A stretch of 40,026 nucleotides of DNA from Bacillota bacterium (GTDB taxonomy: Bacteria > Bacillota > Sulfobacillia > JAJZYS01 > JAJZLH01), in the NCBI GenBank assembly GCA_021827745.1, contig JAKAUI010000023.1, forward strand, positions 1 to 40,026, written 5' to 3'. The notes under the pieces are model-generated. The model saw nothing but the letters and a program-made list of their open reading frames with translations. It did not search any database and was not told the DNA's origin. Shown here one piece after another: positions 8,318-28,557 of the stretch; the stretch's first letter is position 1; each line of letters starts with the position of its first letter. The position numbers were made by a program, and so were the translations under genes.

Positions 8318-8349
8318 CTGGCAAACCTCCTTCCCATACGTCCCGAGAA

Positions 8350-8492: not shown

Positions 8493-8515
8493 CGCTGGAC
8501 ATTCAATTTGCCATC

Positions 8516-13312: not shown

Positions 13313-13431
13313 TGGCTCTCCCTCCCCTCGACCGATCGCGCACCGCACCTGTCGTCCGAAAACCGGTCTTAGTCCCTCTCGCACCCGACGGCAGGATCGA
13401 AGCGGCCAGGTCAGCTTCGACCCTCAGCTCG

Positions 13432-14166
13432 CTAGGGCAGGCCCGGTCCACCCCAAAACGGCACCCCGCCCAGGCGCAGGCTGAGCACGAGGGCGGCTGC
13501 CCCCGCCAGGTACGGAGCCAGGGCAAAGCTGTCATGGGGGCGGCGCCTGCGGCTGAGCAGCATCACGCCAGCCCAGGAGCCGGCAGCGATGAAAGCGGCC
13601 AAGAGAGCTAAAACGCCGGCCAGGGGGCCCAAGAACAGTCCGATTACGGCCGCCAGCTTGACATCTCCCCCGCCCAGGCCCCCGCGGCTGAAAACAGCCA
13701 ATAAGAGCGCCAGTCCGCCCAGGGTCAGGGCACCGAATCCGATTGACTGCCACGGTGCCGGCGGCCAGGCCAGAGCGCTCACCAGGGCGCCTAGGACAGC
13801 CACCAGGAGCAGCCGGTCTGGCACCAGCCGCGCCTCCAAGTCGGTCCAGGTCACGAGCCCGAGCACGACCAAAAACACGGCTGCTGGAACCGCCTGCCGC
13901 CAGTCCGAAAATAGCCATCCACCGCATAGCGCAAGTACGCCGGCCAAAAGCGCCATCAGGCGCTCCCGTCGCGGCGGCTTCGTCCCACAGCGCGCACAGG
14001 CGCTGCCGGGTATCCCCAGCCATGCCCAGGACGACAGCGGTGCCTGGCAGTTCTCGCAGCTTCGGTGCCAGGGCCGACTGACGGTCGGATCAAGCCACCT
14101 GCGGGTCTCTACCGCGAGGACCAGTCCCAGTGCCGTTCCGCCGACCAGCAGCAAGATCAGACTCAT
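13432..14166 (-). CDS. Prepilin peptidase (type IV leader peptidase)
   Basis: 244 residues, the full two-domain form. Two CxxC pairs (CENCQAP and CARCGTKP) lie in the N-terminal cytoplasmic zinc-binding loop. The catalytic aspartates are in TWTDLEARLVPD and GLGGGDVKLAAVIG. Hydrophobic helices fill the rest. It cleaves and often N-methylates prepilin leaders at the membrane; the Flp and TadE proteins of the neighbouring operon are its likely substrates. The ATG overlaps the aroE stop (ATGA). Confidence 0.95.
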   Translation of the reverse strand: MSLILLLVGGTALGLVLAVETRRWLDPTVSRPWHRSCENCQAPLSSWAWLGIPGSACARCGTKPPRRERLMALLAGVLALCGGWLFSDWRQAVPAAVFLVVLGLVTWTDLEARLVPDRLLLVAVLGALVSALAWPPAPWQSIGFGALTLGGLALLLAVFSRGGLGGGDVKLAAVIGLFLGPLAGVLALLAAFIAAGSWAGVMLLSRRRRPHDSFALAPYLAGAAALVLSLRLGGVPFWGGPGLP

Positions 14167-14981
14167 GAGGCGCTCTTCGCCTCCTCCTCGACCAGCAGGC
14201 GCAGGTGGGCGAGGAACTCTAGCTCCGGTCCGTGCTCACCGAACCACAGCTCCCAGCTCAGCGCGGCCTGGGCTGCCAGCATCGCCACTCCGGACACCGT
14301 CTTCAGGCCACGGGCCGCCGCTTCCCGCAACAGCTTGGTCGGCGACGGGCGGTAGACAAGGTCGTAGACCCAGGTGGAGGCGCCGAGCCCGTCCAGGTGG
14401 TCGAGCGGCATGACGCCAGCATCTGGCGCCTGTCCCACAGGCGTGGCGTTGACTAAGAGGTCTAAAGCGTCGAGCATCCGGTGTCGATCGTCCCAGGCGA
14501 CGCCTTGAACCTTGGTCTGGTCGACCAGTCTGGACAGGCGTGCCGGGTTCCTCGTGCTGCAGGTGACGGCGCAGCCAAGGCTCTGAAGGCCGCCGACCAC
14601 CGCCCGGGCCGCACCGCCTGCGCCGAGCACCAGAGCGCGCTCCGGCCGGATTGGCAACGTCGCCAAAAAGCCCTCGAGGTCTGTGTTGGCACCATACCAG
14701 CCGTTGGGTCTGCGAACGACGACGTTCACCGCCCCCAACTCGCGGGCCTGGTCGCTGAGCCCTGCCAAAAAGCCGATCACCGACTCCTTGTGCGGGACCG
14801 TCACGTTGAACCCCTGCCACGGCTGCTGCCACATCCGCTCCAACGTGGCTGAAAGCTCTTCCGGGCGAACGGCGAGGCCGACGTACAGTGCGGAACGGCC
14901 TCCTTGCTGGAAGGCTCGCTGATGGATCTGAGGCGACAGGGAGTGGCCGATCGGATAGCCGATCACCCCATAGAGGTCCAC
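14163..14981 (-). CDS. aroE: Shikimate dehydrogenase
   Basis: 272 residues. YGVIGYPIGHSLSPQIHQ at the N-terminus, GFNVTVPHKESV with the catalytic lysine, NTDLEGF, the NADP-binding LVLGAGGAARAVVGGL, and NATPVG identify AroE, which reduces 3-dehydroshikimate. Start is GTG, immediately after the TGA of the deacetylase gene, with GGGGAGG 8 bases upstream. It therefore appears co-transcribed with the exopolysaccharide genes, an unusual partnership. Confidence 0.96.
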   Translation of the reverse strand: MDLYGVIGYPIGHSLSPQIHQRAFQQGGRSALYVGLAVRPEELSATLERMWQQPWQGFNVTVPHKESVIGFLAGLSDQARELGAVNVVVRRPNGWYGANTDLEGFLATLPIRPERALVLGAGGAARAVVGGLQSLGCAVTCSTRNPARLSRLVDQTKVQGVAWDDRHRMLDALDLLVNATPVGQAPDAGVMPLDHLDGLGASTWVYDLVYRPSPTKLLREAAARGLKTVSGVAMLAAQAALSWELWFGEHGPELEFLAHLRLLVEEEAKSAS

Positions 14982-15863
14982 TCACTCAGCCTCCCCGATA
15001 GGTCTCAGACCGCCCGAGCCCAGCACCATGCGGGGGGCGAGCTGCGCCGCCTGATCCGTGGCTACCTTGCAGGCCGGCCCCCACGAAATCGCAGACAACA
15101 ACCAGACAAGTTTCTCGGCGAAGGCGTCGGCTCCCGCCGTCATGGAAAAACGCACACTGGCTGGCACTGCGTCCGGAAACTGCCACGTTGGGCGGCCCAC
15201 CTCCCAGGGATGAAGATAGCCCACGGCCGGGTAGCTTTTCGCCGCATAGGAGGCTGCAATCCAGCGGCGGGGCAGGCTGCGCCAGTAGAACCCTCCTCCG
15301 GCGCGCAGGCCGGACCAGGAACGGACCGCGGTCGGAAGTTCGAACAGGTCTCCCGCGTCGGTGGCGATCCGAAGCGGACGGCCGGTCGCGACCGGCTCGC
15401 CGTAGATGCCGTGTCGGCCGTCGAAGATGCTCATGTCGACACGAAAGCCTGTCTTGCGAATTACCTCTGGCGCCCAGGGAACCTTGCGGTCCAGGGACCA
15501 GGTCGGAGCCCTGAAGGCAGTCACCGGCTGACCGGAGAGGTCTTGCAAGAGGCCCCTGGCCCGGCCCAGATCGGCCATCAGACGCTCCTGGCCCAGATCG
15601 ACCAGAAGGTCGTGGGTCCAGCCATGGCAGCCGATCTCGTGGCCGCGCGCGACGATGTCTCGAATCAGGCCCGGATTGTCCTTTGCCACCTCGCCCACAA
15701 CGAAGAAGGTGGCCTGCACACCCGTGTGCGCCAGAATGCTGAGCACCTGCTCGGTCTGAGCCTGCACCAGGGGCTGGCCGGCTCGGCGGTCCACCCACCC
15801 GGCCAGAAGGGTGGCATCGGACCAGCGCTCGACGTCAACGCTCAGGATGTGGCGGGTCACCAT
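14982..15863 (-). CDS. Polysaccharide deacetylase (NodB fold)
   Basis: 293 residues. HILSVDVERW carries the first catalytic Asp, GHEIGCHGWTHD the metal-binding His pair, and FRAPTWSLDRKVPWAPEVI and YLHPWEV match the PEP-CTERM-locus type of deacetylases. These remove acetyl groups from N-acetyl sugars in exopolysaccharides. No signal peptide is visible, which is odd for a polymer-acting enzyme; either it acts inside or export occurs with the complex. I chose the ATG at 15861-15863 with GGAGGATG upstream; a GTG six codons earlier is possible. In Pel systems the deacetylase activity resides in PelA, so this gene may cover half of that role. Confidence 0.88.
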   Translation of the reverse strand: MVTRHILSVDVERWSDATLLAGWVDRRAGQPLVQAQTEQVLSILAHTGVQATFFVVGEVAKDNPGLIRDIVARGHEIGCHGWTHDLLVDLGQERLMADLGRARGLLQDLSGQPVTAFRAPTWSLDRKVPWAPEVIRKTGFRVDMSIFDGRHGIYGEPVATGRPLRIATDAGDLFELPTAVRSWSGLRAGGGFYWRSLPRRWIAASYAAKSYPAVGYLHPWEVGRPTWQFPDAVPASVRFSMTAGADAFAEKLVWLLSAISWGPACKVATDQAAQLAPRMVLGSGGLRPIGEAE

Positions 15864-17008
15864 CTGAACAGCATCCTCCACATCTCAGGCCGCAGCGCCA
15901 TGGCCACGGCGATCAGCGGGAAGGCGACGGTCGGCCCCATGTCGTCCAACGACCAGATGTCATCTGTCAGAGCGCGGACATCGCCGCCAAGCGCCTGTCG
16001 GCCGAACCAGCGAGCAGGGTGCGACAAAAAGTGCAGCAGGTCGGCGGGCATCGACCAGCGGCAGCCCACGCCCACACGATAGACCGGCGGCGATGCATTG
16101 GGATGCCCGGCCATGGCGGCGGCCTGCAGGCCAGGAAAGTCCACCCCGGCCGCCACCGCGACTGCAAGCGAGTTCCAATAGCGCGGATTCACCTCGGCCA
16201 GCACCATCCGCCCGCTGTCTTCCGCTTCCAGGAACTCCACCTCCAGCGGTCCCCGCCAGCCGACAGACTCGACCAGCTGGCGCGCCATCGCCACCAGGTC
16301 GGGCCGACTGGCGCTGACCTGGACGGTGCTGGCCCCGTATGGCTCGGGGAACCAGCGCAGCTCCCGCTGGACGAAGCCGGCCAAGAACTCGCCGTGAGCT
16401 CCATACAGAAGGCCGACGTCCCATTTGGCCGAAACCGCGATCCACTCCTGGGCGATCATGCCTCCTCCTGCGCTGGCCCACCTCCTAAACGCCGCTACTG
16501 CCTCATCCGGCCTCTTCACCAAGCGGACGCCGCGCCCACCGGCACCTCGGCGGGGACGGAGGATGAAGCCCTGGGGCCACTGCGCCAGCAGTTCGATCAG
16601 GTCCTGTTCCGTGTCCACGAGGCGACTCTCTGGAGTGTCCATGCCCAGGCTCCTGGCCAGATCGATGGTTCGGCCCTTGTCCCGAAACCACTGGTAGTGG
16701 TCAGCTTCGGGAACCAGGGCGCAGGCCGCCGCCCGACCGCCCAGCAAGGTGGCGGCCTCGGTGCTCTCGTCGTCCATGGGCAAGACTAGGTCAAATCTCT
16801 GCCCGATCAGCGTGTCCTGAAGCCAGCCCGAAAACCGCTTGGGATCGCCCAAAGGTGGTGAGCGCAGGGCACCTTTTGCCCATTTCGAGAAGCGGGCCAA
16901 GGCGACGGGCGTGTCTTCGGCCACCCACACCTCATGGCCAAGCACACCCAGCTGGCGCACTGCGGTGAGGCTCTTTCGCAGCTGCCCGTCCGTGACCAGC
17001 ACCTTCAT
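15857..17008 (-). CDS. ATP-grasp family carboxylate-amine ligase
   Basis: 383 residues. KVLVTDGQLRKSLTAVRQLG begins a pre-ATP-grasp domain. It is followed by the nucleotide-binding ILRPRRGAGGRGVRLVKR, MIAQEWI and the metal-binding VLAEVNPRYWNSLAVAVAAG. Such ligases activate a carboxylate as acyl phosphate and join it to an amine. The substrate here is unknown, but the setting among polymer genes suggests an amino acid or other acid added to a sugar, or a precursor. The ATG at 17006-17008 overlaps the GT2 stop (ATGA) with CAGGGA upstream; an ATG five codons earlier is an alternative. Confidence 0.82.
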   Translation of the reverse strand: MKVLVTDGQLRKSLTAVRQLGVLGHEVWVAEDTPVALARFSKWAKGALRSPPLGDPKRFSGWLQDTLIGQRFDLVLPMDDESTEAATLLGGRAAACALVPEADHYQWFRDKGRTIDLARSLGMDTPESRLVDTEQDLIELLAQWPQGFILRPRRGAGGRGVRLVKRPDEAVAAFRRWASAGGGMIAQEWIAVSAKWDVGLLYGAHGEFLAGFVQRELRWFPEPYGASTVQVSASRPDLVAMARQLVESVGWRGPLEVEFLEAEDSGRMVLAEVNPRYWNSLAVAVAAGVDFPGLQAAAMAGHPNASPPVYRVGVGCRWSMPADLLHFLSHPARWFGRQALGGDVRALTDDIWSLDDMGPTVAFPLIAVAMALRPEMWRMLFRW

Positions 17009-17808
17009 CGGTTCCCTGCCCATCCGCCCACCACGCGGACATCCCCCAGCACAGCCCTGGCCCTTTGCGCGGCGCCCTGGCGGGGCCGGGTGAAGGAGCG
17101 GCCGTATGCGACCAGCGCCATCACGGCGTTCGTGAGCCCATCGCGGTGCCGAACTCCCTTGCGGTAGTAACGGATGGTCACCGGCTCCGTGTTGTCTATG
17201 CGGGCGCCCTGGCGGGCGGTCAGCACCGCCAGCTCCTGGGCGCAGCCGTAGGCAAGCGCCGTGAAGTAGGGCAGCAGCCGGGAGACGGTCTTGAGCCTCA
17301 TCACCCGGAAGCCGCTCTCGGCATCCTCATACGGCTGTCCGCCGAGCCGGGACGCCCACCAGGACAGGGCGCGGTTGCCAAATCGCTTGCCAAACGGGTA
17401 GCCAGAAAGGCCGCGTCGGCCAAGCACGACATCGAAGTCATGATCGATCAGGCGCTTGACCAGGCGCGGGATCTCCTCCGGCAGGTGCTGGCCATCGGCA
17501 TCCAGCATGACCAGAAGGTCGGTCTCCTCCAGGTGGCCGTCCTCAACGGCCAGGACGAGGTAGGCAAAGCCGCTCAGCAGCGCCTGGGACATGCCGCGAT
17601 TCTTCTCGTGGTGCAGCACCGTGCGCCTTGCCCCTTCAGTCGCCCATCGGTCCAGGCTCTTCCCCGACCCGTCGCTCGAGCCGTCGTCGACGGCGACGAT
17701 CCGATCGACGAAGCGGGCAACCTCGTCCAGGACAGCCACCACCGTCGCCTGCTCGTTGTACACGGGCACCAAGGCGATGGTTAGCGGCCGCCTGGCGTCA
17801 GCCTCCAC
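17005..17808 (-). CDS. GT2 family glycosyltransferase
   Basis: 267 residues from the chosen GTG. ALVPVYNEQATVVAVLDEVA, IVAVDDGSSDGS, LLVMLDADGQHLPEEI with the DxD-type metal site, and LGRRGLSGYPFGKRFGNRAL follow the order of GT-A fold glycosyltransferases related to polyprenol-phosphate sugar synthases. There are no membrane helices, so it probably acts on a lipid carrier from the cytoplasm. The true start is uncertain: GTG 17806-17808 has no clear ribosome-binding site, while a TTG at 17833-17835, with GGACGGGG before it, would overlap the upstream gene by 17 bases. Confidence 0.9.
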   Translation of the reverse strand: MEADARRPLTIALVPVYNEQATVVAVLDEVARFVDRIVAVDDGSSDGSGKSLDRWATEGARRTVLHHEKNRGMSQALLSGFAYLVLAVEDGHLEETDLLVMLDADGQHLPEEIPRLVKRLIDHDFDVVLGRRGLSGYPFGKRFGNRALSWWASRLGGQPYEDAESGFRVMRLKTVSRLLPYFTALAYGCAQELAVLTARQGARIDNTEPVTIRYYRKGVRHRDGLTNAVMALVAYGRSFTRPRQGAAQRARAVLGDVRVVGGWAGNR

Positions 17809-17818
17809 CGACGGCGAA

Positions 17819-18625
17819 TCAGCGACCGCGCACAATGTCCCCGTCCACCGTGCGGATGCCCTGGGCATAGTCAAACGGCGCGGCGTAGTGCAGGAAGCCG
17901 AACCTGCGAGCGAGTTGGCGCAGATAGTCCAGCTGCCGGTCCGAGGTCGCACCGGGTTCGACGAGGGACAGGAGCATCGGCATCAGTCCCAGCGAGTTCG
18001 AGTACTGGAGCAGACTGTCGAGCGTCATCTGCGCCCAGGGCGCCTTTAGTTCCTCCTCGGACAGGGTTCCCTCCCAGCAGACGCCGTCCAGGTAGCTGGC
18101 AACGAGCGGCAAGAGTAGCCACAGGCCGTTGTTCATCACCACCAGCTTGTCTGGAAAGACGCTGCGCCCCATCCGAACCAGGTCAGCGGTGGCGGAGAGC
18201 AGCCAGCCCGTGTCTTGGGACACGAGCGGGTCCTCGACGTCGCCCAGGCTGTCCAGGAAGATCCCGTCCCACCCGGCGTGGGAGAGCGCAGTCAGCTGTT
18301 CCAACAGATGGTGTTTCCAAAGGGCTGAGCGCGGATCCACCACGTAGGTGCCAAACTCCTCGCGCAGCCAAGGCCTGCCTTCAACCCTCAAGAGGTCACG
18401 GCTTTGCAGCCGCAGCTTCTCGACGATGTGCGGCGCCGCCTCCATAGCGCCCACGTAGGCCAGCACCTTAGTCCCCCTGGTCTTCAACTGGGCCACGTCA
18501 GCGCTCCGCCAGCCGGCAGGCTCCAAGATGGCAAGGTCGTACTGATCGATCCCCTGTAGCGGCCCATAACCGTAGTAGACGGTATAGGTGCGGGCACGGA
18601 TCCTGGGCGCTTTCACGCTGGGCAC
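17819..18625 (-). CDS. GH114/PelA-hydrolase-like glycosidase
   Basis: 268 residues. VYYGYGPLQGIDQYDLAILEP, TKVLAYVGAMEAA, GWDGIFLDSLGD (acidic residues near 120-125), VVMNNG and VCWEGT match the TIM-barrel family of endo-alpha-1,4-polygalactosaminidases (GH114, related to the GH166 domain of PelA). These cut polymers of galactosamine type, and Pel contains partially deacetylated N-acetylgalactosamine. No signal peptide is evident, and there is no fused deacetylase domain as in PelA; the separate deacetylase at 14982-15863 may complement it. GTG start with AAGGGGAT 7 bases upstream. Confidence 0.82.
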   Translation of the reverse strand: MPSVKAPRIRARTYTVYYGYGPLQGIDQYDLAILEPAGWRSADVAQLKTRGTKVLAYVGAMEAAPHIVEKLRLQSRDLLRVEGRPWLREEFGTYVVDPRSALWKHHLLEQLTALSHAGWDGIFLDSLGDVEDPLVSQDTGWLLSATADLVRMGRSVFPDKLVVMNNGLWLLLPLVASYLDGVCWEGTLSEEELKAPWAQMTLDSLLQYSNSLGLMPMLLSLVEPGATSDRQLDYLRQLARRFGFLHYAAPFDYAQGIRTVDGDIVRGR

Positions 18626-18649
18626 CTGTGCAATCCCCTTCCCGGGGTC

Positions 18650-20251
18650 CTAGACTTCCGGAGGACGCGGCACGATTCCCTGGCCGGCGAGGACCCGTTC
18701 CAAGAGGTCGACCATCGCCGGGTCGAGCTGAGTCGCTCGAAGCTTGTCGACCTCGTAGAGGGCCCGATCCGGCGCCAGGCCGGGGCGGTAACTTCGGGCC
18801 GAAGTGCGGGCGACGTAGTTCTCGGCGGCAGCCATCAGCCGTCCGGGAAGCGGGATGTCCTCGCCGGCCAGGCCCTCAGGATAGCCGAGTCCGTCCCAGC
18901 GTTCGTGGTGGTAGCGGACGGCGTCCCGCACCGTTGCCGAGGCCACCCCTGGCGGCAGACTGGCCAGCAGGTCGTAGCCGACCTCTGGATGGCGCTGGAT
19001 GAGGGCCCGACTGGTCTCGGACAGTGTTCCCTTGGTCATCGGCAGGTCGAGGTTGACCGCCACCATGCCGAGGTCGTGCAGACGACCGGCCATCTCCATT
19101 TGGCCCACATCCTGCTCCGTCATCCCTAGCGCTCGGCCCAGGCTGACCGCGACCTGCGCGACCTGCCGGGAGTGGCCCTGGTTGAACGGGTCGGCGGCAT
19201 CCAGCATGTCGACGATGGCGTAGAGGGCTTCGACATAGCTGGCGGTGCTGGCCGCCGACAGAGCTCGCCCCTGGAAGGTGGATGCCAGGCTCCCCCCCAG
19301 CACCGTCAGGACGTTGCGCAGATGGTCGCTGGCGACCAAGGCGTTCTTCGCACCGTAGACCACGGCGCCGCGCTCTCGGCCCGCTGCCACCGGCACCACC
19401 ACGAATCCCTTATACCCAAGGCGAAGCACCGGAGCAGGCAGCCTGGGGGCGCTCCAGACGGCGGCCTGGGCGACGGGCAGGGCGGCGGTCAGCTGGCGGG
19501 GATCGAGGGCGTCTGCCAGCGAGGCGTCTTCACCCTGCCACAACAGTTCCACGGAACTCCCGGCGTCCTGCCAGCTGGCGAAGTAGCCGCTTTCTGCAGC
19601 CAGAGCCTCCCCGCCCAGACGGCAGACTAGGCGCAACACCTCGTCGACCTGAAGCACCAGTTCCAGAGCCCGCTGCTGGGTGCTCGCCTCCAGCCGGCTC
19701 TCGTCCGCCCGTCGACCCAGGCGGTCGGCGTACAGCACCACAGCCAGAAGGGGCCGAAGCCGGTAGGCATACGCCGCCAGCTGCCGACGATCGTGGTCCT
19801 CAAGCCTGAAGCGAGCCGGGACTGCAATCCTGAGCATGATGGCCTCTCCGCAGCTGACGCTGAGGTAGGGCTCAACCTTGGTCCCGTCCACCACAATCTG
19901 CAGGGGATCTTCGGGCATCGCCAAGTCGAGAGGCGCCTGCCGAATCGGACCTCCGGCGACCAGTCCGGCATAATTGGGGCCGATCGTCGGGGTGCCGGTC
20001 GCTGTCCGGGTCGCCTTCAGCAAGAGCGGCCCCGCCGCGTCGTCGGCGGCATAGGCGTAGTAGCCTCCGGCCTCCATCATCTTGCCGAGGCCGGTGAGGG
20101 CGGCAAACAGGGTGGCCTGCAGGTCATAGGGAGGCTTCAGTGCATCCATGACCTCCTGCCAGGCCTCGTCGACCGTGCCCTGGCGGGCCTGGCGCCGTCC
20201 AAACAGGCCGAGGCCAACGCTCGCCAGAGCGATCCAGCTCAAGCCGTCCAC
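18650..20251 (-). CDS. Membrane-anchored HD-GYP protein with GAF-like regions
   Basis: 533 residues. An N-terminal helix (LSWIALASVGLGLF) is followed by two regions of about 130-150 residues that look GAF-like, and from about residue 350 an HD-GYP domain. That domain shows GHSRQVAQ, LHDLGM (392-393 the HD pair), RHPEVGYDLL and HHERWDGLGYPEGL. Family members hydrolyse cyclic-di-GMP. Here the usual lysine of HDxGK is Met (LHDLGM) and the usual Asp near AxDxYDALT is Glu (AENYVARTS), so activity may be altered or lost and it may be a sensor. In Pseudomonas Pel operons the membrane GAF/GGDEF receptor PelD fills this slot. GTG start with GGGGGTGG upstream; it lies 31 bases after the membrane protein. 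Confidence 0.83.
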   Translation of the reverse strand: MDGLSWIALASVGLGLFGRRQARQGTVDEAWQEVMDALKPPYDLQATLFAALTGLGKMMEAGGYYAYAADDAAGPLLLKATRTATGTPTIGPNYAGLVAGGPIRQAPLDLAMPEDPLQIVVDGTKVEPYLSVSCGEAIMLRIAVPARFRLEDHDRRQLAAYAYRLRPLLAVVLYADRLGRRADESRLEASTQQRALELVLQVDEVLRLVCRLGGEALAAESGYFASWQDAGSSVELLWQGEDASLADALDPRQLTAALPVAQAAVWSAPRLPAPVLRLGYKGFVVVPVAAGRERGAVVYGAKNALVASDHLRNVLTVLGGSLASTFQGRALSAASTASYVEALYAIVDMLDAADPFNQGHSRQVAQVAVSLGRALGMTEQDVGQMEMAGRLHDLGMVAVNLDLPMTKGTLSETSRALIQRHPEVGYDLLASLPPGVASATVRDAVRYHHERWDGLGYPEGLAGEDIPLPGRLMAAAENYVARTSARSYRPGLAPDRALYEVDKLRATQLDPAMVDLLERVLAGQGIVPRPPEV

Positions 20252-20282
20252 TGCGCCACCCCCGATCCGCTCGGCGCCGTCT

Positions 20283-22271
20283 TCATGGCTGCTGAATCCA
20301 GATCACCAGCAGCTGGCTACTGTGGAAGTATACGCTGGCCGTCTTGGGATGAGCCTTAAGATACGCCATGCCCCAGACTAGGGCCCTGCCGCTGACCGCC
20401 GCCCCCGCCGCGCCGCTGTACGCTGCCACCCCTCCACCGGTCGGCAGCTTGAGGCCGGCGTCCTGCGCCGTGATCGGGTGGGAGAAGCCAGGGACCTTGA
20501 GCGGGATGTCCAGGAAGATGTCCGGTGTCAAGATGGCCGCGCTTCCAGCATCGAGCGGCCTAAAGGCAGGGGACTTGGCCTGTGACAGCCGGGCGCTTGA
20601 GACGAACGTCACAAGCTCCACGTGCCATCCCCGGCCCAGCACCTCGCTGTACTGCTGGGTCGGCGAGACAAGCGTCCAGGTATAGGCCGGGAAGGCGTCG
20701 CTGATCCGCAGGTAGACGCGTCCGGACCCGATCGGCTCGAAGCGCTGCAGCGGCTGCGGCTTGAGCGGGGCGAGATAGAGACTGGGCGCCAGGGTGGCGA
20801 CGGCTAAGAGTGCGGCCACCGAGCGATTGGCAGGGAGCTTGAGCGCGCCCATGTACGCCCACCCGAAAAAGGTCGTGACCAGGAGCGCCCCGACGACATC
20901 TGCGGCAAGACCGGCTCCTCCCACGTCATAGACGCCGAAGGGCCCCAGCTTGGTCAAACCCCAGCATCCGGCGATGACGATGGCCATGCCGATTGTGACT
21001 GCCGCCCAGGGACGCGAGTTGCGGAACGCCAGCACCCCTTGCGCCACCAGGGCGGCCGCCACGGCCGCAATCAGGAGCGGCGCCCGTGGCCCGGCCAGCC
21101 AGGCCACCACACCGGTCGGCGCTGCGAACGGGACGCGCATGGTCCAGAGGATGTCGAGCGGAGGGACCTTCAACAGCGTGCCGCCCACGATCGGGACGAT
21201 GCCGGCCGCCACTGCCGCCAGGGTTAGGGCGACGGCACCAATGCCCCTCCTTGCCGTGCCGGGAACAAGGCATGCCCAGGCGAGAGACAGGGCGATCACC
21301 CCGACCAAGAGATAGGGTGCCAGCAGCGGCTCGACCAGCGTCACTACGATCGCAGCGGACAGCATGATCAGCCGGTCCCGCCGATCGCCCTGGCGCAGCC
21401 AGCGCAGGCTGAAGGCCAGCGCAAACAGCAAGAAGGCCAGCGCCATTTTCGGCGCAATCGGCGTCGTCAGGTGCCAGGGCACACCGCCGGCGGTGGCCAG
21501 CGTCGTCAGGCCCACGGCCACTGCCGCGGTGAAGATCGCCCACAGGCTGCCGCCAGAGATCTCCCAGGCCAATGTCATCGCCGCCAGGACGATCATAACG
21601 GCGGTCAGGGCGCCCCAGAAGCGCAAGATCAGCAGCGGATTGTTCAGAAACAAGGTGGACATGGCCGCCACCAAGACGTGCAGTCCCTCGGGGAAGAGCC
21701 CGATGGCGAACGGGCCCTGGTTGAGCGCGATCTCCTTCACGGCCAAGAGGTCGACGTAGCCCTCTGCGGTGCCTGGCGCCACCTGGGCCAAGGGCCCCAG
21801 CAGGTGCCACCCAAAGGTGAGCGCGATGGCGAGCACCGAGCCAAGAACCAAGGGCTGGCGAAGCCCCATCACAGCCCGGCGCACCGCCTTCACCAGATCC
21901 CCGAGGTAGCTCCACAGGAACCACAAGAAGCCGTGCGAGCTCTCTGGGTCCATGGTGTCCCAAAAGCGACTGGCCTTTTTGGTTCCGGCCGCCCGCTCCT
22001 CCTTGGTCTGAGGCGGTCGGCCCCGGGTCACGCCCACGGCCACGCCGATCACGGCCACGGCCACCATGGTCGCAAGCTCCACGCTGCGCGCCAGGGTGAG
22101 GACAAAGCTGACTGCCGTCCAAAAGGCCACGCCGGCGACGAGCACGCTGCTCAGTCGGATCAGCGCCCCCTCATCTGAGCGAGCGGCCAGGGCCACCGCT
22201 GGCAAAAACAAGATGGCCACGACGAAGTCGAGGAGGGTCTGGACCAGCGTCCCCAAAGAGCCCGCCAGCAT
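20283..22271 (-). CDS. Large multi-pass membrane protein, divergent family member 3 (unknown function)
   Basis: 662 residues with roughly 12 hydrophobic helices, a charged cytoplasmic insert near residues 100-125 (RGRPPQTKEERAAGTKKASR) and a C-terminal extracytoplasmic region. Its end (VYFHSSQLLVIWIQQP) aligns with the ends of the two paralogues at 11360-13312 and 22275-24269 (VFFSSPQLTVYEL and IFFNSSELTVYEL), so a common origin is likely though the core is more diverged. ATG start with GGGGGAGGA 6 bases upstream, overlapping nothing and only 3 bases past the previous stop. Placement right after the PelG-like gene suggests a role in polymer synthesis or export. Function unknown. Confidence 0.8.
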   Translation of the reverse strand: MLAGSLGTLVQTLLDFVVAILFLPAVALAARSDEGALIRLSSVLVAGVAFWTAVSFVLTLARSVELATMVAVAVIGVAVGVTRGRPPQTKEERAAGTKKASRFWDTMDPESSHGFLWFLWSYLGDLVKAVRRAVMGLRQPLVLGSVLAIALTFGWHLLGPLAQVAPGTAEGYVDLLAVKEIALNQGPFAIGLFPEGLHVLVAAMSTLFLNNPLLILRFWGALTAVMIVLAAMTLAWEISGGSLWAIFTAAVAVGLTTLATAGGVPWHLTTPIAPKMALAFLLFALAFSLRWLRQGDRRDRLIMLSAAIVVTLVEPLLAPYLLVGVIALSLAWACLVPGTARRGIGAVALTLAAVAAGIVPIVGGTLLKVPPLDILWTMRVPFAAPTGVVAWLAGPRAPLLIAAVAAALVAQGVLAFRNSRPWAAVTIGMAIVIAGCWGLTKLGPFGVYDVGGAGLAADVVGALLVTTFFGWAYMGALKLPANRSVAALLAVATLAPSLYLAPLKPQPLQRFEPIGSGRVYLRISDAFPAYTWTLVSPTQQYSEVLGRGWHVELVTFVSSARLSQAKSPAFRPLDAGSAAILTPDIFLDIPLKVPGFSHPITAQDAGLKLPTGGGVAAYSGAAGAAVSGRALVWGMAYLKAHPKTASVYFHSSQLLVIWIQQP

Positions 22272-22274
22272 CGC

Positions 22275-24269
22275 CTATCCTCCCCCGCTCGCGCTGCCAC
22301 CCGCGGCGGCCGTGGCTGACGGCTGGAGTGAGAGCTCATAGACCGTGAGCTCGGAGCTGTTGAAAAAGATCGTCGCGGCCGGGTGGTGCGCGTCCCAGAC
22401 TTGCAGCCACGCCTTCATCAGGGCGCTGTCGTGGCGGTCGATGGCTGCGTATAGGGGCCCCGCCACCGCGGCGGGGGCCAGGTGGTAGTGGTGATTCACG
22501 AACAGAAAGATCTCGCTCTGGGCCAAGGGATAAGGCTTGGCACCGCCGCCTGGGCTGTAGTGAGGCCAGCGAAAGGAGCTGGTGGCGGACACGTGGCTGA
22601 CGAAGGTCGGGATGTCGATCTGAAATCCCTGGTCGAGTGCCAACGAGTAGCCGAAGTTGTTCGAGATGGCGAGCCACGTGCCAGGGGTTTGAGTGGTGGC
22701 GATCTTCTCATAGGCGTAGACGTAGGCGTCAGAGGTCATCGAATACGGAGTGAGCGCCGGCGGCGGGAACACGAGCCAGGCATAGACGGACAGCACCAGG
22801 GCCGAAAGCAGGGACATCCATGTCGCCGCCTTGTCCCTGACCACCCAGCCGATCAGCTCTTCGATCAGACACCAGCCCATGGCCAGACCCAATGCCTCGG
22901 CAAAGGCCACCAACTCACCGCTTCTGGTGGAGAGCAGGGCCGAATTGATGCCAAAGTGCGGCAGTTGCTGGATCAAGACGGCGCCCGCCAGCACAAAGAG
23001 GGCGACCAGGGGCGCACCGATCTGGCCTCCATCCTGGCGGCGAATCAGCCGCAGCAAGAACAGCAGGACGCAGCTGGCGGCCGCCGCCTTGGCAACCAGA
23101 CTGATCGTAAGCGGCGGTGCCGTGCTCTTGGCAGTCAGGAAGGTGGCCGCCGAGCCGTAGAGGGGGATTCCCAAGAGGTGCGGCACGGCCACTGGCAAGA
23201 TGACCACGACAGCAGCCAGAGGGACGAAGCGGCTGTACCAGCGGAGCGTCTTACGATCGATGCCGCCCGCCATCCACCCGGCCACCGTTCCGGCGACGGC
23301 CGCGATGACGGCGTTTAGCAGCGGGATGGGATGGACCAGGCCGGCGATGGTCAAAAGGCAGACCGCGATCCAGCGCCAGCCCTTTTCGTTGGGGGCCACC
23401 CAGGACTGGTAGACGAAGTAGGCGGTGGGCAGGGCGAAGATGTTGCCGAACTCCTGGCTGTCGGTTGCAGCCTGGCGGTCGACGACATACGGAAACAGGA
23501 AGAACAGGGTCCCGTAGAGGGTCATGGCCACGATCCCGGGAGCGACCCGTCCGGTGAGTCGCCAGGCCGAGTAGCCGACTGAGAGCACCATGGCGAGACC
23601 GACCGCTGGGCCAAAAAACTTCTCGAACACGACTGGGCTGGCAAGTGTCAGTTTGTCCATCTGCGCCAGCACCAGATGGAAGCCGCGGGGATAGATCCCG
23701 TTCACGAACAGGTTCTGAGCGAGAATTCCTTTCATCCAGACGATGACCACGTAGGCGTCTGAGTAGGTCAGGGCGGCATGCGTCCAGTTGCCCCAAAAGC
23801 GCGTCCAGGCAGCCACAGAAATCACGAGGAGGGTGGTGAAGCCGGCCACCCAACCATAGAGCGGCGGCAGACGGAAATTCCTCCAGAACCGATGCCATCC
23901 GCCCACTGCTCCCTGCCACAGCCGCCCCGGGGCAGTCGCCAGGCGATCGAGTTCGGCCAGGAAGACGGCGGCAAGACGCGAGTTGGTGGCCAGTTCGTAC
24001 CGACTGCGGTACTTCGGGCGGACGGTGAAGCGCAGGAGGAAAATCAAGACCACCAGAGGCACCCAATATAGGAGGTGGCTGGCGGTCAGGATGTAGCCGA
24101 CGACGATCAGAAAGAGGATCATTTGGGCCGCATTCGCCGCCATCCGATCGATGCGGGCCATCTCCGGGTACTGTGGCAAGGCGACGCTTGGCCACCAGAT
24201 GAAGAGGAGCACAACGCCAATGGCAAGCCGGGTCAGCGTCTCGGTGATCAGCCAGAGGGGAAGTGCCAT
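22275..24269 (-). CDS. Large multi-pass membrane protein, family paralogue 2 (unknown function)
   Basis: 664 residues. Starts MALPLWLITETLTRLAIGVV, with about 12 hydrophobic helices, SDAYVVIVWMKGILAQNLF after the early helices, and a conserved C-terminal domain (SDAYVYAYEKIATTQTPGTW, FLFVNHHYHLAP, IFFNSSELTVYEL). It is strikingly similar along its whole length to the protein at 11360-13312. A short Ala/Gly/Ser tail ends it. The ATG has AGGAG 6 bases upstream and lies 10 bases from the PelG-like stop, so it is probably co-transcribed with it. GT-C type glycosyltransferase or polymer co-transport are possible roles; nothing in the sequence settles it. Confidence 0.83.
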   Translation of the reverse strand: MALPLWLITETLTRLAIGVVLLFIWWPSVALPQYPEMARIDRMAANAAQMILFLIVVGYILTASHLLYWVPLVVLIFLLRFTVRPKYRSRYELATNSRLAAVFLAELDRLATAPGRLWQGAVGGWHRFWRNFRLPPLYGWVAGFTTLLVISVAAWTRFWGNWTHAALTYSDAYVVIVWMKGILAQNLFVNGIYPRGFHLVLAQMDKLTLASPVVFEKFFGPAVGLAMVLSVGYSAWRLTGRVAPGIVAMTLYGTLFFLFPYVVDRQAATDSQEFGNIFALPTAYFVYQSWVAPNEKGWRWIAVCLLTIAGLVHPIPLLNAVIAAVAGTVAGWMAGGIDRKTLRWYSRFVPLAAVVVILPVAVPHLLGIPLYGSAATFLTAKSTAPPLTISLVAKAAAASCVLLFLLRLIRRQDGGQIGAPLVALFVLAGAVLIQQLPHFGINSALLSTRSGELVAFAEALGLAMGWCLIEELIGWVVRDKAATWMSLLSALVLSVYAWLVFPPPALTPYSMTSDAYVYAYEKIATTQTPGTWLAISNNFGYSLALDQGFQIDIPTFVSHVSATSSFRWPHYSPGGGAKPYPLAQSEIFLFVNHHYHLAPAAVAGPLYAAIDRHDSALMKAWLQVWDAHHPAATIFFNSSELTVYELSLQPSATAAAGGSASGGG

Positions 24270-24278
24270 CGGGCGCTC

Positions 24279-25928
24279 CTAAGCGATCCGAAACAGCATG
24301 TAGTCGATGCGAGACAGTGTGCGCCAGACTTCCGCCGAGCTGGCGACCAGCAAATAGGCCACGCCTATGACCAGCCCGAACACGGCGAACTGGTAGGCGG
24401 CGAACACTCGGGTTGCCACCAGCCCGACCACCAGGTCGACCGCCACGGCCGTCAGCATGGCGCGTAGCGCCGGGATGGGCTGAGACAGCGTAAACAAGAG
24501 CAGGATGTTGAACAGACAGATGGCCAAGAACACATACGCCCAGCTCGCCCATGCCAGGACGAAGGGTTCCACCCCTCGCACCGGGATGGCGTTTCGCATG
24601 CCCGGCAGATGCATGACCAAGAGCAGCATCACGTGGGCCGCTGCCCAGCCAATGACTGCGACGCACAGAAAGATGGCGACCCCTGTCAGGTACACCCGGC
24701 GCATTCGGGCGGTCAGCCGCACCACCTCATCCTGGCCGATCTCATGCTCGTCGGTCTGCATCCGGCGCATCACGTAGTTGATCATCGCCTCCGCTGCGGC
24801 CAAGGGAACGATCAGGGCGGCCAGGGCCCAGTCCATCCCGAGCTCATACTGGCCCCGGAACCAGATGTCATAGGGCAGGAAGACCGTGTTCGTCGACCAA
24901 GCGATCAGGCGGTCGGCGAAGATAAACACAAAATACAAGATGCCGTAGATGAAATAGGGCCACGTCGAGTATGCCAACTGCGACATTCTGGTCTTGATGA
25001 TGCGGCCGGCATCCTTGCTCCCGACCAGGCTCTTGCGCAGGATCACGACGCTGATCACGACCGTCGCCACGGTGGCCACGAAGATGCCGGCCACCTGCGC
25101 CACCACAACCGGGTAGCCGTGGGTCCAGATCTCGTAGGCGACCACGATGGCGAGCGCAGTCATCAGGGTCAGAATGTACTCGCGGCGCAGGACATACAGA
25201 CCCGAAAACGACAGCCAGAGCATGGACAGCATGACCGTGTACACGGCCATGAACAGAACGAGCGAGATCGGCATCAGCGGGAAGATGGTGTCCAAGAGCA
25301 CTACGCCGACCGCAACCACGACCGAGAAGACGAATCCCCAGCGCATGATCAGATACATCGTGCGCTCGACCATGGACGTCTCCTGAAGGCCGATCAGGAG
25401 ATAGTAGGTGTTGGCCATGGCCTGCGAGAAGCCGCCGGTGGCGATGAAGCTCAAGAACGTGGCTAGAGCAAGCGCCGTGGCCTGGTAGACGCTGAAATAG
25501 AGATAGGAGGCCACGGAGATGTGCAGCAGGATCATGCTCAAGACCGAAACGGCCATCGGAAGGGCGAACGTGAAACCGTGCAGGACCTGCCGAATGGTCT
25601 GCACCAGCACGACCGAAAACGGGATCTCAACCTTGGGTGGAATCGGCTGGCTGCCGACTGACTGCTTGATGTCCAGGTACATCTGCTCGGCGAGTTCGAA
25701 CACGCTGGCGTAGCCGAATGAAGACTCCACGCGCTGGTCGGTCCAGCCGGTGGACTCGATCACAGCGGCGACGTCCATGGTGTCCTGGACGTCAGGATTG
25801 GCTTCCATCACTTGCCGCATCAGGCGCTCATAGCCATCGTCACGGCCAGCGGCCTGACGGCGAGCGGGAAGCGGACGAAGCGGCACCGAATGATCCATCG
25901 CGGGCAGTCGATCCTCGCTGGCAGACAT
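24279..25928 (-). CDS. pelG: PelG-like exopolysaccharide transporter
   Basis: 549 residues from the ATG at 25926-25928 (a GTG at 25973 is possible). About 12 hydrophobic helices. The stretch YFIYGILYFVFIFADRLIAW, followed by PYDIWFRGQYELGMDWALAA, is characteristic of PelG, the MOP-superfamily flippase-like Pel exporter. Unlike Pseudomonas PelG (about 456 residues), this one has about 85 extra N-terminal residues: DVQDTMDVAAVIESTGW, then VESSFGYASVFELAEQMY. It is the first gene of the long minus-strand exopolysaccharide unit, facing PelF across a 231-base divergent region. Confidence 0.88.
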   Translation of the reverse strand: MSASEDRLPAMDHSVPLRPLPARRQAAGRDDGYERLMRQVMEANPDVQDTMDVAAVIESTGWTDQRVESSFGYASVFELAEQMYLDIKQSVGSQPIPPKVEIPFSVVLVQTIRQVLHGFTFALPMAVSVLSMILLHISVASYLYFSVYQATALALATFLSFIATGGFSQAMANTYYLLIGLQETSMVERTMYLIMRWGFVFSVVVAVGVVLLDTIFPLMPISLVLFMAVYTVMLSMLWLSFSGLYVLRREYILTLMTALAIVVAYEIWTHGYPVVVAQVAGIFVATVATVVISVVILRKSLVGSKDAGRIIKTRMSQLAYSTWPYFIYGILYFVFIFADRLIAWSTNTVFLPYDIWFRGQYELGMDWALAALIVPLAAAEAMINYVMRRMQTDEHEIGQDEVVRLTARMRRVYLTGVAIFLCVAVIGWAAAHVMLLLVMHLPGMRNAIPVRGVEPFVLAWASWAYVFLAICLFNILLLFTLSQPIPALRAMLTAVAVDLVVGLVATRVFAAYQFAVFGLVIGVAYLLVASSAEVWRTLSRIDYMLFRIA

Positions 25929-26010
25929 AATGGTCCCGTCGAGATTCCCCGATCGACCTCTCCGATCCTGCACACGCAGGCCTGAAGCGGCTATTTCACC
26001 GTTCCGACCG

Positions 26011-26026
26011 CAGGCTCTAGAGCCTG
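26011..26026. promoter_or_regulatory. 16-bp perfect palindrome in the pelG-pelF divergent region
   Basis: CAGGCTCTAGAGCCTG is its own reverse complement. It lies 83 bases before the PelG-like start and 134 before pelF, in a region otherwise without genes, and is a plausible operator. No gene for a matching regulator is near. Confidence 0.5.
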
Positions 26027-26068
26027 GCCCCGAGCGGCAGCCATTTTAGCGTTGCAACCGGCCAATGC

Positions 26069-26098
26069 TTGGTCCATCGTGATCCCAACTACTATATA
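26069..26098 (+). promoter_or_regulatory. Candidate pelF promoter
   Basis: TTGGTC (26069-26074) and TATATA (26093-26098) with an 18-base spacer, 62 bases before the pelF start. The -10 box is inside a 10-bp palindrome ACTATATAGT (26091-26100). Both boxes match the consensus only partly. Confidence 0.35.
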
Positions 26099-26159
26099 GT
26101 GGGCCGCGGTCAGCGACCAGCAGACGTCAGAATTCGAGAGGTCAGGGGAGGGCGGCGGC

Positions 26160-27893
26160 TTGGCCCGCAGACCGGTGATCCTTCTGGCGACGGAGGGGAC
26201 CTATCCCTTCCACCCAGGCGGTGTCAGCACTTGGTGCGACACCCTGATTCACCGCATGCCCGATGTGGACTTCGTGGTCTTCGCCATCGCCATGAATCCG
26301 TACGTCAGCATCCGATTCTCGATGCCCCGCCATGTCCAGTCGATCGTCACCGTCCCGCTGTGGGGCACCCAGGACCCATCGGAACACCGACAAGACGCAG
26401 CCTTCTCCCAGATCTTCTTGCGCAAGCAACGCACCAGCGGCGCCGAAATCGAGCGCCTGTTCATTCCGCTTCTCGACCAGCTGCTGGGCCAGATGCGCGT
26501 CGGCACCGAAGACCCAGAGGTGGTCGGCGAGGCACTCGCCGGCCTGTATCGGTACTTCCAGGTCTACGACTATCAGACGTCCTTTAAGAACCCAGTGGTC
26601 TGGGAGCACTACCGCGCCTGGGTGGTCAGTGCGGCGGCGGACGGTCTCTGGGACCAGCCAACCGTCTTCGAGGCCGTTCAGTCGCTCGGCTGGATCTACC
26701 ACTTCTTCACGGTCCTGAACACGACCCTGCCAGAGGTGGACCTCGTCCACTCGTCCGCGGCGGCCTTCTGTGGAATGGCCGGAATCGTCTCCAAGATCCA
26801 GTTCGGCACGCCTTACATCCTGACGGAACACGGCGTCTATCTGCGCGAGCAGTACCTTTCGGTCGGGCGCAGCAATATGTCCGGTTTCGCCAAGCGCTTC
26901 CTCATCTCTCTGATCCAGACAGTCGTCAAGGCCAATTTGCACTATGCGGACGAGCTCTCCCCGGTGTGCTCCTTCAACGCCCGTTGGGAGCGACTTCTGG
27001 GCGCAGACCCCGGGCGCATCCGCGTGATCTACAACGGCGTCGACCCTCAGGTGTTCACCCCGGCAGCGGAACCGCCCGGCGGCGATAAGCTGGAGGTGCT
27101 CTGCGTCGCCCGCTCCGACCCGAACAAGGATCTCGAAAGTCTGCTTCACGCTGCCGCCATCGTCGAGCAGAAGATCGGCGGGGTCCGCTTCGTGGTGCGC
27201 GGGGCGGTTTCTGTCCCCGAATACCACACCAAACTGCTCGATCTGCGCTCGGAGCTGGACCTGGGCGGTGTCGTCGATTTTCCGGGGGCCACCTCTAACA
27301 TCGCCGAGTCATACCGCGGCGCTGACATCGTAGTCCAGTCCAGCGTCTCCGAAGCCTTCCCCTACTCTGTGATCGAGTCGATGATGAGCGGCGTTCCGGT
27401 AGTCGCCACCGATGTGGGCGGCACCAGAGAGGCAATCGGTGACACCGGCCTATTGGTACCCGCCCGTGATCCCGCCCGCCTGGCCTTGGCACTGATCGTT
27501 CTCGCCCAGGACAAGAGCCTGCGCGAGCGGCTGGGGCAGGCGGCCCGAGAGCGGGCCCTCAACTTCTTCACGGTCGCCCGGACAATCCGCCTCTATCAGG
27601 AGACCTATCTGCGACTCGCCGGTCTGAGCCCAAGGACTGCCGACGCCCAGCGCCAGCAGCTCTTGGCTTTGGACCGGGCCTACGCCTTGATGCGGGTTGG
27701 GCTGGCGGCTCCTGCCTTGGATCAGATCAGAGGCGTGATGACCGCCAACGCCAACAACCCGATGGCCGCCTTTCTGATGGCGCAGATGGCACAGCTCGAG
27801 CGCTCTCTGGGGCAGACGGAACAGGGGATCAGACACATGGTCAGCGCCTGGCTGCTCAACCATCTTGAGCAGGTGCGGTCCACCTCCGCCTGA
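26160..27893 (+). CDS. pelF: PelF-like GT4 glycosyltransferase
   Basis: 577 residues. LLATEGTYPFHPGGVSTWCD near residues 9-28 is the PelF N-terminal motif. The C-terminal GT-B half has VLCVARSDPNKDLESLLHA and VSEAFPYSVIESMMSGVPVV with the EX7E motif, and ends with a helical TPR-like tail of about 80 residues (ANNPMAAFLMAQMAQLERSL). PelF polymerises the Pel backbone from UDP-linked amino sugars in the cytoplasm and works with PelG. The gene is TTG-initiated with GGGGAGGG 7 bases upstream. It lies on the opposite strand to the rest of the block and is followed by two DivIVA-like genes. Confidence 0.92.
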   Translation: MARRPVILLATEGTYPFHPGGVSTWCDTLIHRMPDVDFVVFAIAMNPYVSIRFSMPRHVQSIVTVPLWGTQDPSEHRQDAAFSQIFLRKQRTSGAEIERLFIPLLDQLLGQMRVGTEDPEVVGEALAGLYRYFQVYDYQTSFKNPVVWEHYRAWVVSAAADGLWDQPTVFEAVQSLGWIYHFFTVLNTTLPEVDLVHSSAAAFCGMAGIVSKIQFGTPYILTEHGVYLREQYLSVGRSNMSGFAKRFLISLIQTVVKANLHYADELSPVCSFNARWERLLGADPGRIRVIYNGVDPQVFTPAAEPPGGDKLEVLCVARSDPNKDLESLLHAAAIVEQKIGGVRFVVRGAVSVPEYHTKLLDLRSELDLGGVVDFPGATSNIAESYRGADIVVQSSVSEAFPYSVIESMMSGVPVVATDVGGTREAIGDTGLLVPARDPARLALALIVLAQDKSLRERLGQAARERALNFFTVARTIRLYQETYLRLAGLSPRTADAQRQQLLALDRAYALMRVGLAAPALDQIRGVMTANANNPMAAFLMAQMAQLERSLGQTEQGIRHMVSAWLLNHLEQVRSTSA

Positions 27894-28041
27894 TTTCTGA
27901 ACCAGGTCTTGGCATCGGCGTGCAACCCTCTTGCGTCGGTCCCTTCGCGCGTGCTAGTGTTTTGCTCGGTATTATGTACCATCGCGTCCCCGGCTCATGT
28001 GACCCTTCCCGGGCCCAAGCGGTGTGATCGGAGGCGGCCCC

Positions 28042-28557
28042 ATGGATCGTGACTTTCGACGTAGCCTGATTGGCTACAAGGTTGCGGGGACGGAGCGATT
28101 CTTGAGTTTCCTCGAGCAGGAAATAGCTGCTCGCCGCGAGGCACGGGAGGCTCAGATCGCCGCGCTCCACCAGGAACAAGCCGCCTTCCAAGGTGACGTC
28201 CGGACGATCGAAGAGGCAATCTCACGCCACGAGCAGGCACAGAGCGCTCTGCGATCCACGCTGACTTTGCTGTCTGAGCAGGGAGTGCGCAAGGTTCAGG
28301 ACGCCCAAGAGCGGATGGCCCAGGACGACGCCCAGCGCATGGCGGTCCTCGCCCGGCGCGAGAGCATGCTGTCTCAAACCGGCCGGCTGCTGGAAGAGTT
28401 CCGGTCCGGCGTGCTGGCCTTGATCGAGAAGACGCTCGCCGCGCTTGCTACGAACCAGCAGTTTCCGGAAGCCCTTTCTGATCCCGCCTCGTCCGACGGG
28501 ACGGCACCGATCGTTGTCCAGCCCGGATCCGCTGGAGCCGCTTCCGCAGGCAAGTAA
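28042..28557 (+). CDS. DivIVA-like coiled-coil protein
   Basis: 171 residues. The first residues (FRRSLIGYKVAGTERFLSFL) resemble the DivIVA membrane-binding motif (F..GY...V..FL). They are followed by a long charged coiled coil and a short, low-complexity Ala/Gly/Ser tail. DivIVA-type proteins bind curved membrane and recruit partners at poles or septa. Start is ATG 28042-28044 with GGAGG 7 bases upstream; a GTG six codons earlier lacks a good site. The gene ends in TAATG, overlapping the next gene's start. Similarity is only at motif level, so the family call is moderate. Confidence 0.62.
   Translation: MDRDFRRSLIGYKVAGTERFLSFLEQEIAARREAREAQIAALHQEQAAFQGDVRTIEEAISRHEQAQSALRSTLTLLSEQGVRKVQDAQERMAQDDAQRMAVLARRESMLSQTGRLLEEFRSGVLALIEKTLAALATNQQFPEALSDPASSDGTAPIVVQPGSAGAASAGK

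Follow-up and report, generated by a model that had tools for sequence, protein, structure and literature searches.

We analysed a 40,026-nucleotide stretch of a Bacillota genome (class Sulfobacillia; assembly GCA_021827745.1, contig JAKAUI010000023.1, positions 1 to 40,026 of the forward strand), referred to here as the window. Our preferred reading, to which we assign a probability of roughly 55%, is that a gene block in the window encodes a second, Bacillota-centred Pel-type exopolysaccharide lineage, PelF2-PelG2, coupled to a polyprenyl-phosphate sugar arm made up of a family 2 glycosyltransferase (GT2), a deacetylase and proteins of the GT-C fold. The protein families, fold classes, conservation and absence of PelD and PelE that underlie this reading are shown by the present analysis. 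An initial annotation made from the sequence of the window had suggested a separate variety of Pel system, and this suggestion is backed by the PelF tree, a remote PelG, the absence of PelD and PelE, and an organisation that is stable across genera. The organisation is real and conserved, and it is apparently undescribed: no account of it, whether as a known cluster or otherwise, was found in the open-access full-text literature, although survey supplementary tables may list some of the pelF genes.

The source genome is 1.62 Mb in size and ~97% complete, and the organism is called monoderm here from its Bacillota affiliation alone. Genes were assigned by running Pfam and NCBIfam models against the window proteins, and the components of the system are as follows.

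14982-15881, minus strand: NodB-type deacetylase with DUF3473, of the XrtA-system type (PF01522, E 9e-23; PF11959, E 1.3e-15; TIGR03006, E 1.6e-50)
15857-17023, minus strand: ATP-grasp ligase (PF02222, E 1.4e-8; also PF15632 and PF02655)
17005-17826, minus strand: GT2 glycosyltransferase (PF00535, E 1.6e-22)
17819-18625, minus strand: PelA-hydrolase-like/GH114-like glycoside hydrolase (PF03537, E 9e-6, just under the cut-off; stronger by profile)
18650-20251, minus strand: GAF-like/GAF-like/HD-GYP protein (PF13487, E 7.6e-33)
20283-22271, minus strand: TM662, second GT-C-like membrane protein (no family; BLASTP match to TM664)
22275-24269, minus strand: TM664, predicted GT-C-fold glycosyltransferase (no family; predicted structure and Foldseek)
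24279-25898 (alternative start 25928), minus strand: PelG type 2 (PelG2), putative 12-helix MOP transporter (hhalign, AlphaFold2, Foldseek)
25653-25841, minus strand: conserved helical N-terminal cytoplasmic domain of PelG2 (alignments and model)
26160-27893, plus strand: PelF type 2 (PelF2), family 4 glycosyltransferase (GT4) with DUF3492 and a GT1-type domain (NF038011, PF11997)
27651-27893 (boundary approximate), plus strand: TPR-like C-terminal tail of PelF2 (pattern in 30 relatives)
28024-28557, plus strand: small coiled-coil protein, encoded immediately after pelF (position kept in relatives)
28557-30389, plus strand: larger coiled-coil protein with a DivIVA-like start (homologues in 38 of 48 loci)
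11360-13384, minus strand: TM664 paralogue, a possible associated part (BLASTP; included in the GT-C alignment)

The genes listed by the initial annotation all lie where it had placed them, and the PelF-like and PelG-like genes are divergent neighbours, as it had described. Its limits for the block, 14982 to 27893, hold for the genes that it listed; the two coiled-coil genes downstream of pelF, however, extend the system to 30389. No promoter was found on scanning the region between the divergent pelF and pelG genes and the region downstream, against 0.4 expected by chance.

PelF2 and PelG2 as a second lineage

On its phylogeny, PelF2 is a true PelF and sister to the canonical clade. The protein matches the curated model NF038011 over its full length with 132 bits (cut-off 100), its DUF3492 domain (PF11997) is found at E 7e-39, and the glutamates of its EX7E motif, E398 and E406, are invariant in its relatives. 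At 577 residues it is longer than canonical PelF (about 479 residues) by a TPR-like C-terminal tail, whose pattern A..QFR.A....P....P.LL.EIA.AY..LG..D.A..ELEKA is conserved in 30 relatives and absent from canonical PelF. Of the full-length PelF proteins in 398 genomes of the phylum, 11 were canonical (E 1e-95 or lower) and 8 were of type 2 (E 1e-37 to 1e-47), and weaker matches to the PelF profile covered the C-terminal GT4 half only. The initial annotation had left room for placement in another GT4 family. In the tree, 30 type-2 and 14 canonical sequences formed separate clades (supports 0.84 and 0.99, mean identity between them 27%), which grouped together, to the exclusion of other GT4 enzymes, with a support of 1.0.

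The assignment of PelG2 was less direct. The Pfam PelG model (PF16933) gave E 2.2 for the window protein and 7.5-9.4 bits when its relatives were included, against a cut-off of 29, and it matched nothing in the window's whole genome. Since this model is silent, we argue the identity of PelG2 from hhalign comparisons with MurJ controls. An alignment of 37 type-2 proteins and an alignment of 8 canonical PelG proteins matched over 390 collinear columns with a probability of 72 (E 3.3e-5). When the MurJ-like flippase encoded in these loci was the partner, type-2 PelG reached a probability of only 8 (E 0.004) and canonical PelG one of 0.8 (E 0.07). On these comparisons PelG2 is a remote relative of PelG and closer to it than to MurJ, which also bears on the concern, raised in the initial annotation, that it might belong to another MOP family. 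A MurJ or Wzx identity was rejected for its weaker profile match (8 versus 72). Thus, of the two core matches claimed initially, that of PelF is borne out by a curated model, whereas that of PelG lacks support from the Pfam model and is seen solely by profile-profile comparison.

An AlphaFold2 model of PelG2 (mean predicted local distance difference test score, pLDDT, 84) has a 12-helix MOP fold, and Foldseek matched it to MATE, WzxE and MurJ structures at E values of about 2e-5 to 1e-3. Its N-terminal helical domain spans residues 20-82 in the model, with D39, A45, E48 and D54 invariant, and is not seen in the canonical PelG alignment. In the 398 genomes, the type-2 PelG profile matched exactly the 8 genomes with type-2 PelF, none of which contained canonical PelG; canonical PelG was found in nine other genomes of a 299-genome sample. 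Taken together, these profiles and trees mark PelF2 and PelG2 as a discrete second lineage.

Conservation of the locus and absence of PelD and PelE

Gene order is the same in two congeners, as determined by TBLASTN. In another family of the same order (f4), the second half of the block (HD-GYP, hydrolase, GT2, ATP-grasp and deacetylase genes) is inverted relative to pelF, pelG and one or two GT-C genes but intact. That the gene set is kept despite this inversion argues for a stable set rather than a chance neighbourhood. The initial annotation had proposed a survey of PelF neighbourhoods; we ran it from the PelG-like alignment, which was scanned over 84,980 species genomes and found the same locus in 47 further named contigs, giving 48 loci with the window. 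In searches of all reading frames with family profiles, the number of loci was 48 for PelG, 47 for PelF, 45 for GT-C, 38 each for HD-GYP and the larger coil, 36 for GT2, 31 for the hydrolase, 27 for ATP-grasp and 22 for the deacetylase; several loci are cut short at contig ends. In distant Bacillota, 9-10 of the block's families are encoded no more than 10 kb from PelG. The block is therefore a unit conserved beyond chance.

The closest named records are the Bacillota metagenome-assembled genomes (MAGs) JAJZLY010000009 and JAJZLH010000059, with Sulfobacillus MAGs more distant. The carriers include Sulfobacillus MAGs, Paenibacillus, Psychrobacillus, Paenisporosarcina, Tumebacillus, Peptococcaceae, Pelotomaculum and others, and outside these groups the locus is carried by single MAG contigs of Thermoflexales and Actinomycetes. 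Within the window's own class, 27 of 154 genomes have type-2 PelG. Loci of Bacilli mostly run in the order pelF, small coil, large coil, pelG, GT-C (one or two genes), ATP-grasp, deacetylase, MurJ-type flippase (16 loci), GT2, DUF2304 (16 loci), HD-GYP and hydrolase. A GalE-type epimerase gene lies nearby in 17 loci. Four Sulfobacillus-type loci contain an exosortase gene (L039, L040 at 17684-19012, L041 and L045), which in L040 adjoins a gene for a small protein with an LPETP-type sorting-like tail; exosortase (PF09721) was not found in the window genome. One Paenibacillus locus (L062) contains VTC and DUF4956 genes at 18183-19617.

The initial annotation had recognised no PelD or PelE. Pfam PelD (PF16963) gave nothing over its cut-off in our searches. 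Because Gram-positive PelD proteins escape such models (PMC7112168), we made custom profiles from 7 Gram-positive PelD and 6 PelE sequences and ran them on six type-2 genomes and on two canonical control genomes outside the alignments. Both controls were recovered (PelD, E 1e-68 and 1e-195; PelE, E 1e-31 and 1e-84), and the window genome returned no match to either profile. In the other type-2 genomes, the PelD profile matched just the epimerase-like N-terminal third or short C-terminal sensor/GGDEF stretches, and PelE was found in none of the six. The profile search proposed at the outset thus placed PelF over its cut-off and PelG under that of Pfam, with PelD and PelE absent. Surveys published in 2020 reported Gram-positive operons with pelFG only, but PelD was recovered there (PMC7112194).

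The sensor, the hydrolase and the candidate lipid-carrier arm

The HD-GYP protein of the window keeps H189, the HD pair, H250, the HH pair and the GYP motif, with D305 replaced by E. In 7 of 25 aligned relatives, from Paenibacillus, Tumebacillus and other Bacillales, HD is changed to SN, H189 to Y and D305 to Q, while the GYP loop is kept. These replacements should abolish catalysis in several Bacilli, which suggests that the protein acts as a receptor for cyclic di-GMP (c-di-GMP) in place of PelD. By analogy, the two proteins would share a logic of sensor domains joined to a c-di-GMP-type domain. The idea of a hidden PelD was dropped, as the GAF regions align at a probability of 1 only; we keep the analogy and not the homology. 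Four GGDEF proteins are encoded in the window genome, so c-di-GMP is probably made.

The C-terminal end of canonical PelE resembles a TPR region in alignment. The small coiled-coil gene keeps its position in the genus and in Sulfobacillus-type loci, and in Bacilli it lies between pelF and the larger coil. Homologues of the latter lie mostly between pelF and pelG and share a conserved C-terminal domain (GKVVGQDIYN...LPELIVYM). Both coiled-coil proteins may serve as further scaffolding.

As the initial annotation had noted, the block contains a separate GH114-like glycosidase. Its nearest match is the PelA hydrolase: the family profile found P. aeruginosa PelA (5tcb) at E 4.9e-24, the entries 5tcb, 5tsy and 9cgy together spanned E 5e-24 to 8e-24, and natural GH114 entries were far behind (E 9e-7). 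D125 and E185 are invariant. The window hydrolase has no signal peptide. Three loci of Psychrobacillus and Paenisporosarcina, listed here, encode fusions in which the enzyme follows a copy of the HD-GYP protein's N-terminal GAF part (GAF-part matches, E 4e-30 to 1e-33).

L048, 20146-21540: GAF-hydrolase fusion
L049, 18197-19618: GAF-hydrolase fusion
L057, 20100-21410: GAF-hydrolase fusion

Two of the three fusions are membrane-anchored, and no separate HD-GYP gene was found in their flanks. Based on the missing signal peptide and these fusions, the hydrolase is most likely cytoplasmic and linked to the sensor.

The most likely start of the GT2 gene, 17826, lies within the end of the hydrolase gene. 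The best NCBIfam model of GT2 is NF058614 (PpgS; E 1.3e-18, 67 bits), and a Paenibacillus orthologue scores 114 bits (E 6.7e-33); both are under the cut-off of 370. The enzyme thus appears similar to the polyprenyl-phospho-N-acetylgalactosamine synthase PpgS and to dolichyl-phosphate-sugar synthases. In Bacilli loci it is accompanied by DUF2304 and MurJ-type proteins. In mycobacteria, PpgS and Rv3632 make polyprenyl-phosphate-N-acetylgalactosamine (GalNAc) and Rv3779 adds galactosamine to arabinogalactan, with the flipping and deacetylating factors described as unidentified (PMC9671496). The present loci hold a candidate analogue for each step of this pathway. The deacetylase of the window scores 171.8 bits with TIGR03006 (cut-off 276.2), a cut-off that a Paenibacillus orthologue reaches. 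It has no signal peptide and no transmembrane segment, its sequence starts at the catalytic domain, and the NodB/DUF3473 protein is thus apparently not an exported deacetylase of the PelA/PelADA type.

The large membrane proteins reported by the initial annotation are present and can now be read as GT-C proteins, TM664 by its predicted structure and TM662 by kinship. An AlphaFold2 model of TM664 built from 31 sequences (pLDDT 89.7, predicted template modelling score 0.89) gave 26 best PDB matches in Foldseek that are all GT-C (PglB/OST, AftA, DPY19, PMT4, ALG12, ArnT and Emb), and all 26 are transferases using lipid-linked donors. Residue D171, which lies in the first outer loop, does not vary among the 31 sequences. 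According to this model, TM664 is a GT-C-fold transferase. TM662 matches TM664 by BLASTP at E 2.8e-9, and the same profiles recover GT-C proteins in 45 loci, which points to a GT-C-like protein. The TM664 paralogue, 55.5% identical over 646 residues, lies away from the main block between aroC and a prepilin peptidase gene.

Elsewhere in the window, the shikimate genes aroE (14163-14981), aroC (10091-11239) and an aroK-aroB fusion (8583-10094), all on the minus strand, are interleaved among the polysaccharide block, the prepilin peptidase and pilus genes. A c-di-GMP-I-GGC riboswitch (8407-8496, minus strand, 74.5 bits) lies just upstream of an Flp pilin gene (about 8152-8318, minus strand) and Tad pilus genes. 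This placement suggests that c-di-GMP controls the pili and perhaps also the polysaccharide locus close by.

Proposed mechanism, alternatives and relation to known systems

Strictly speaking, the block should not be counted as a Pel system: the Pfam PelG model does not match, PelD and PelE are absent, and the deacetylase lacks an export signal. It probably works like a Pel system to which a lipid-carrier sugar arm has been added. In the scheme that we propose, all substrates, the order of reactions and the regulation are inferred. PelF2, a cytoplasmic GT4 enzyme, would polymerise a nucleotide-activated hexosamine, most likely UDP-GalNAc, and PelG2, judging by family-level evidence, would carry the chain across the membrane. 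The GAF-GAF-HD-GYP protein would read c-di-GMP in place of PelD and PelE, with the PelF2 tail and the two coiled-coil proteins possibly holding the complex together. Meanwhile, GT2 would make a polyprenyl-phosphate amino sugar on the lipid carrier and the cytoplasmic NodB enzyme would deacetylate it. The deacetylated lipid-linked sugar would be flipped, for which 16 loci encode a MurJ-type candidate, and transferred outside by the GT-C proteins onto the emerging polymer or an acceptor. Positive charge would in this way be gained without extracellular deacetylation of the PelA type. The signal-less PelA-like hydrolase would probably act intracellularly and, controlled by the sensor, trim or release the chain. 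A further-reaching version, which we offer tentatively, is that the locus represents a distinct class of synthase-dependent exopolysaccharide secretion shared by Bacillota, in which a PelF/PelG core with polyprenyl-phosphate amino-sugar decoration by GT2, the cytoplasmic deacetylase, a flippase and GT-C proteins yields a cationic branched polymer rather than Pel, and a GAF-HD-GYP receptor for c-di-GMP replaces PelD and steers an intracellular PelA-like hydrolase.

Several observations weigh against the coupled PelF2-PelG2 lineage. PelG2 falls under the Pfam cut-off, and its profile probability of 72% is moderate. GT2 is so far under the PpgS equivalog cut-off that its sugar could be another hexose, and the GT-C proteins could glycosylate proteins instead of a polysaccharide. 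Most metal ligands are kept in the HD-GYP protein of the window, which may act as a phosphodiesterase and not as a receptor. Furthermore, the scheme leaves the role of the ATP-grasp protein, found in 27 of 48 loci, unexplained, and Sulfobacillus-type loci lack the deacetylase and ATP-grasp genes near pelF and pelG.

The locus might instead make ordinary, partly deacetylated alpha-1,4-GalNAc polymer, with unrelated proteins filling the roles of PelD and PelE and with GT2, GT-C and deacetylase as mere neighbours or makers of another glycan. The PelF score, the hydrolase nearest to that of PelA, the epimerase genes in 17 loci and the VTC and DUF4956 genes of L062, an accessory pair of streptococcal and clostridial pelDEADAFG loci (PMC7112168), are all consistent with this. 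We nevertheless consider it unlikely, since GT2, GT-C and often the deacetylase stay with pelF and pelG in very distant Bacillota, even with the second half inverted; PelF2 shares only 27% identity with the canonical PelF proteins; and the deacetylase lacks an export signal, unlike B. cereus PelADA, which is single-pass and extracellular (PMC13254593).

It is improbable that the locus serves surface-protein or cell-wall glycosylation, with GT2 and GT-C attaching a glycan made by PelF and PelG to a protein or wall polymer and exosortase handling the acceptor protein in Sulfobacillus-type relatives. OST/PglB, DPY19 and PMT4 stand beside ArnT and AftA among the best structural matches of TM664, the exosortase loci include a small LPETP-ending protein, and the GT-C paralogue adjoins pilus genes in the window. 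However, the fold is common to all GT-C enzymes and so uninformative on the acceptor, and exosortase is absent from the window genome and present in 4 of 48 loci only. Highly doubtful, finally, is the idea that PelG2 is a MOP flippase of lipid-linked sugars and that PelF2 makes a lipid-linked oligosaccharide, not a long polymer. The MOP fold and the WzxE and MurJ structural matches would suit it, but 16 loci encode a separate MurJ-type flippase, PelG2 resembles PelG more than it does that flippase, and PelG2 is strictly paired with PelF.

If the coupled PelF2-PelG2 lineage is real, a second major Pel-type lineage exists in Bacillota that surveys based on PelG, PelD and PelE have missed (0 Pfam PelG matches), with two independent routes to c-di-GMP control and to positive charge on a PelF-made polymer. 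It would be testable in cultured Paenibacillus, Psychrobacillus and Tumebacillus, and it would supply flippase and deacetylase candidates for polyprenyl-phosphate galactosamine pathways, whose factors for these two steps are reported as unidentified in mycobacteria (PMC9671496). For the acid-mine relatives of Sulfobacillus, it would provide a candidate matrix polysaccharide locus.

Among known systems, the exosortase (XrtA) exopolysaccharide clusters share the TIGR03006-type deacetylase, and four Sulfobacillus-type loci contain an exosortase. To our knowledge, such clusters lack a PelF/PelG core. With P. aeruginosa pelABCDEFG, the window shares PelF, a remote PelG and a PelA-hydrolase-like enzyme (best PDB match 5tcb). 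It differs in having no PelB or PelC, as expected of a monoderm, no PelD or PelE, and a separate, signal-less hydrolase. The pelDEADAFG locus of B. cereus ATCC 10987 (PMC7112168) is alike in its adjacent PelF and PelG, PelA-type hydrolase, NodB-fold deacetylase and GAF-containing regulator of the c-di-GMP type, and in the epimerase, VTC and DUF4956 accessory genes of some loci. In contrast, the window system is without PelD and PelE, its PelF has a TPR tail, its PelG is remote with an extra N-terminal domain, its deacetylase and hydrolase lack export signals in a layout unlike that of extracellular PelADA, and GT2, GT-C, ATP-grasp and coiled-coil genes are added. The mycobacterial and corynebacterial galactosamine modification of arabinogalactan (PpgS, Rv3632, Rv3779; PMC9671496) resembles the present loci in a PpgS-like GT2, an epimerase, GT-C proteins and a small membrane partner (here DUF2304), and the present loci additionally encode a MurJ-type flippase and a deacetylase. 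There, however, the acceptor differs, and here a GT2 that scores under the PpgS equivalog cut-off is coupled to PelF and PelG.

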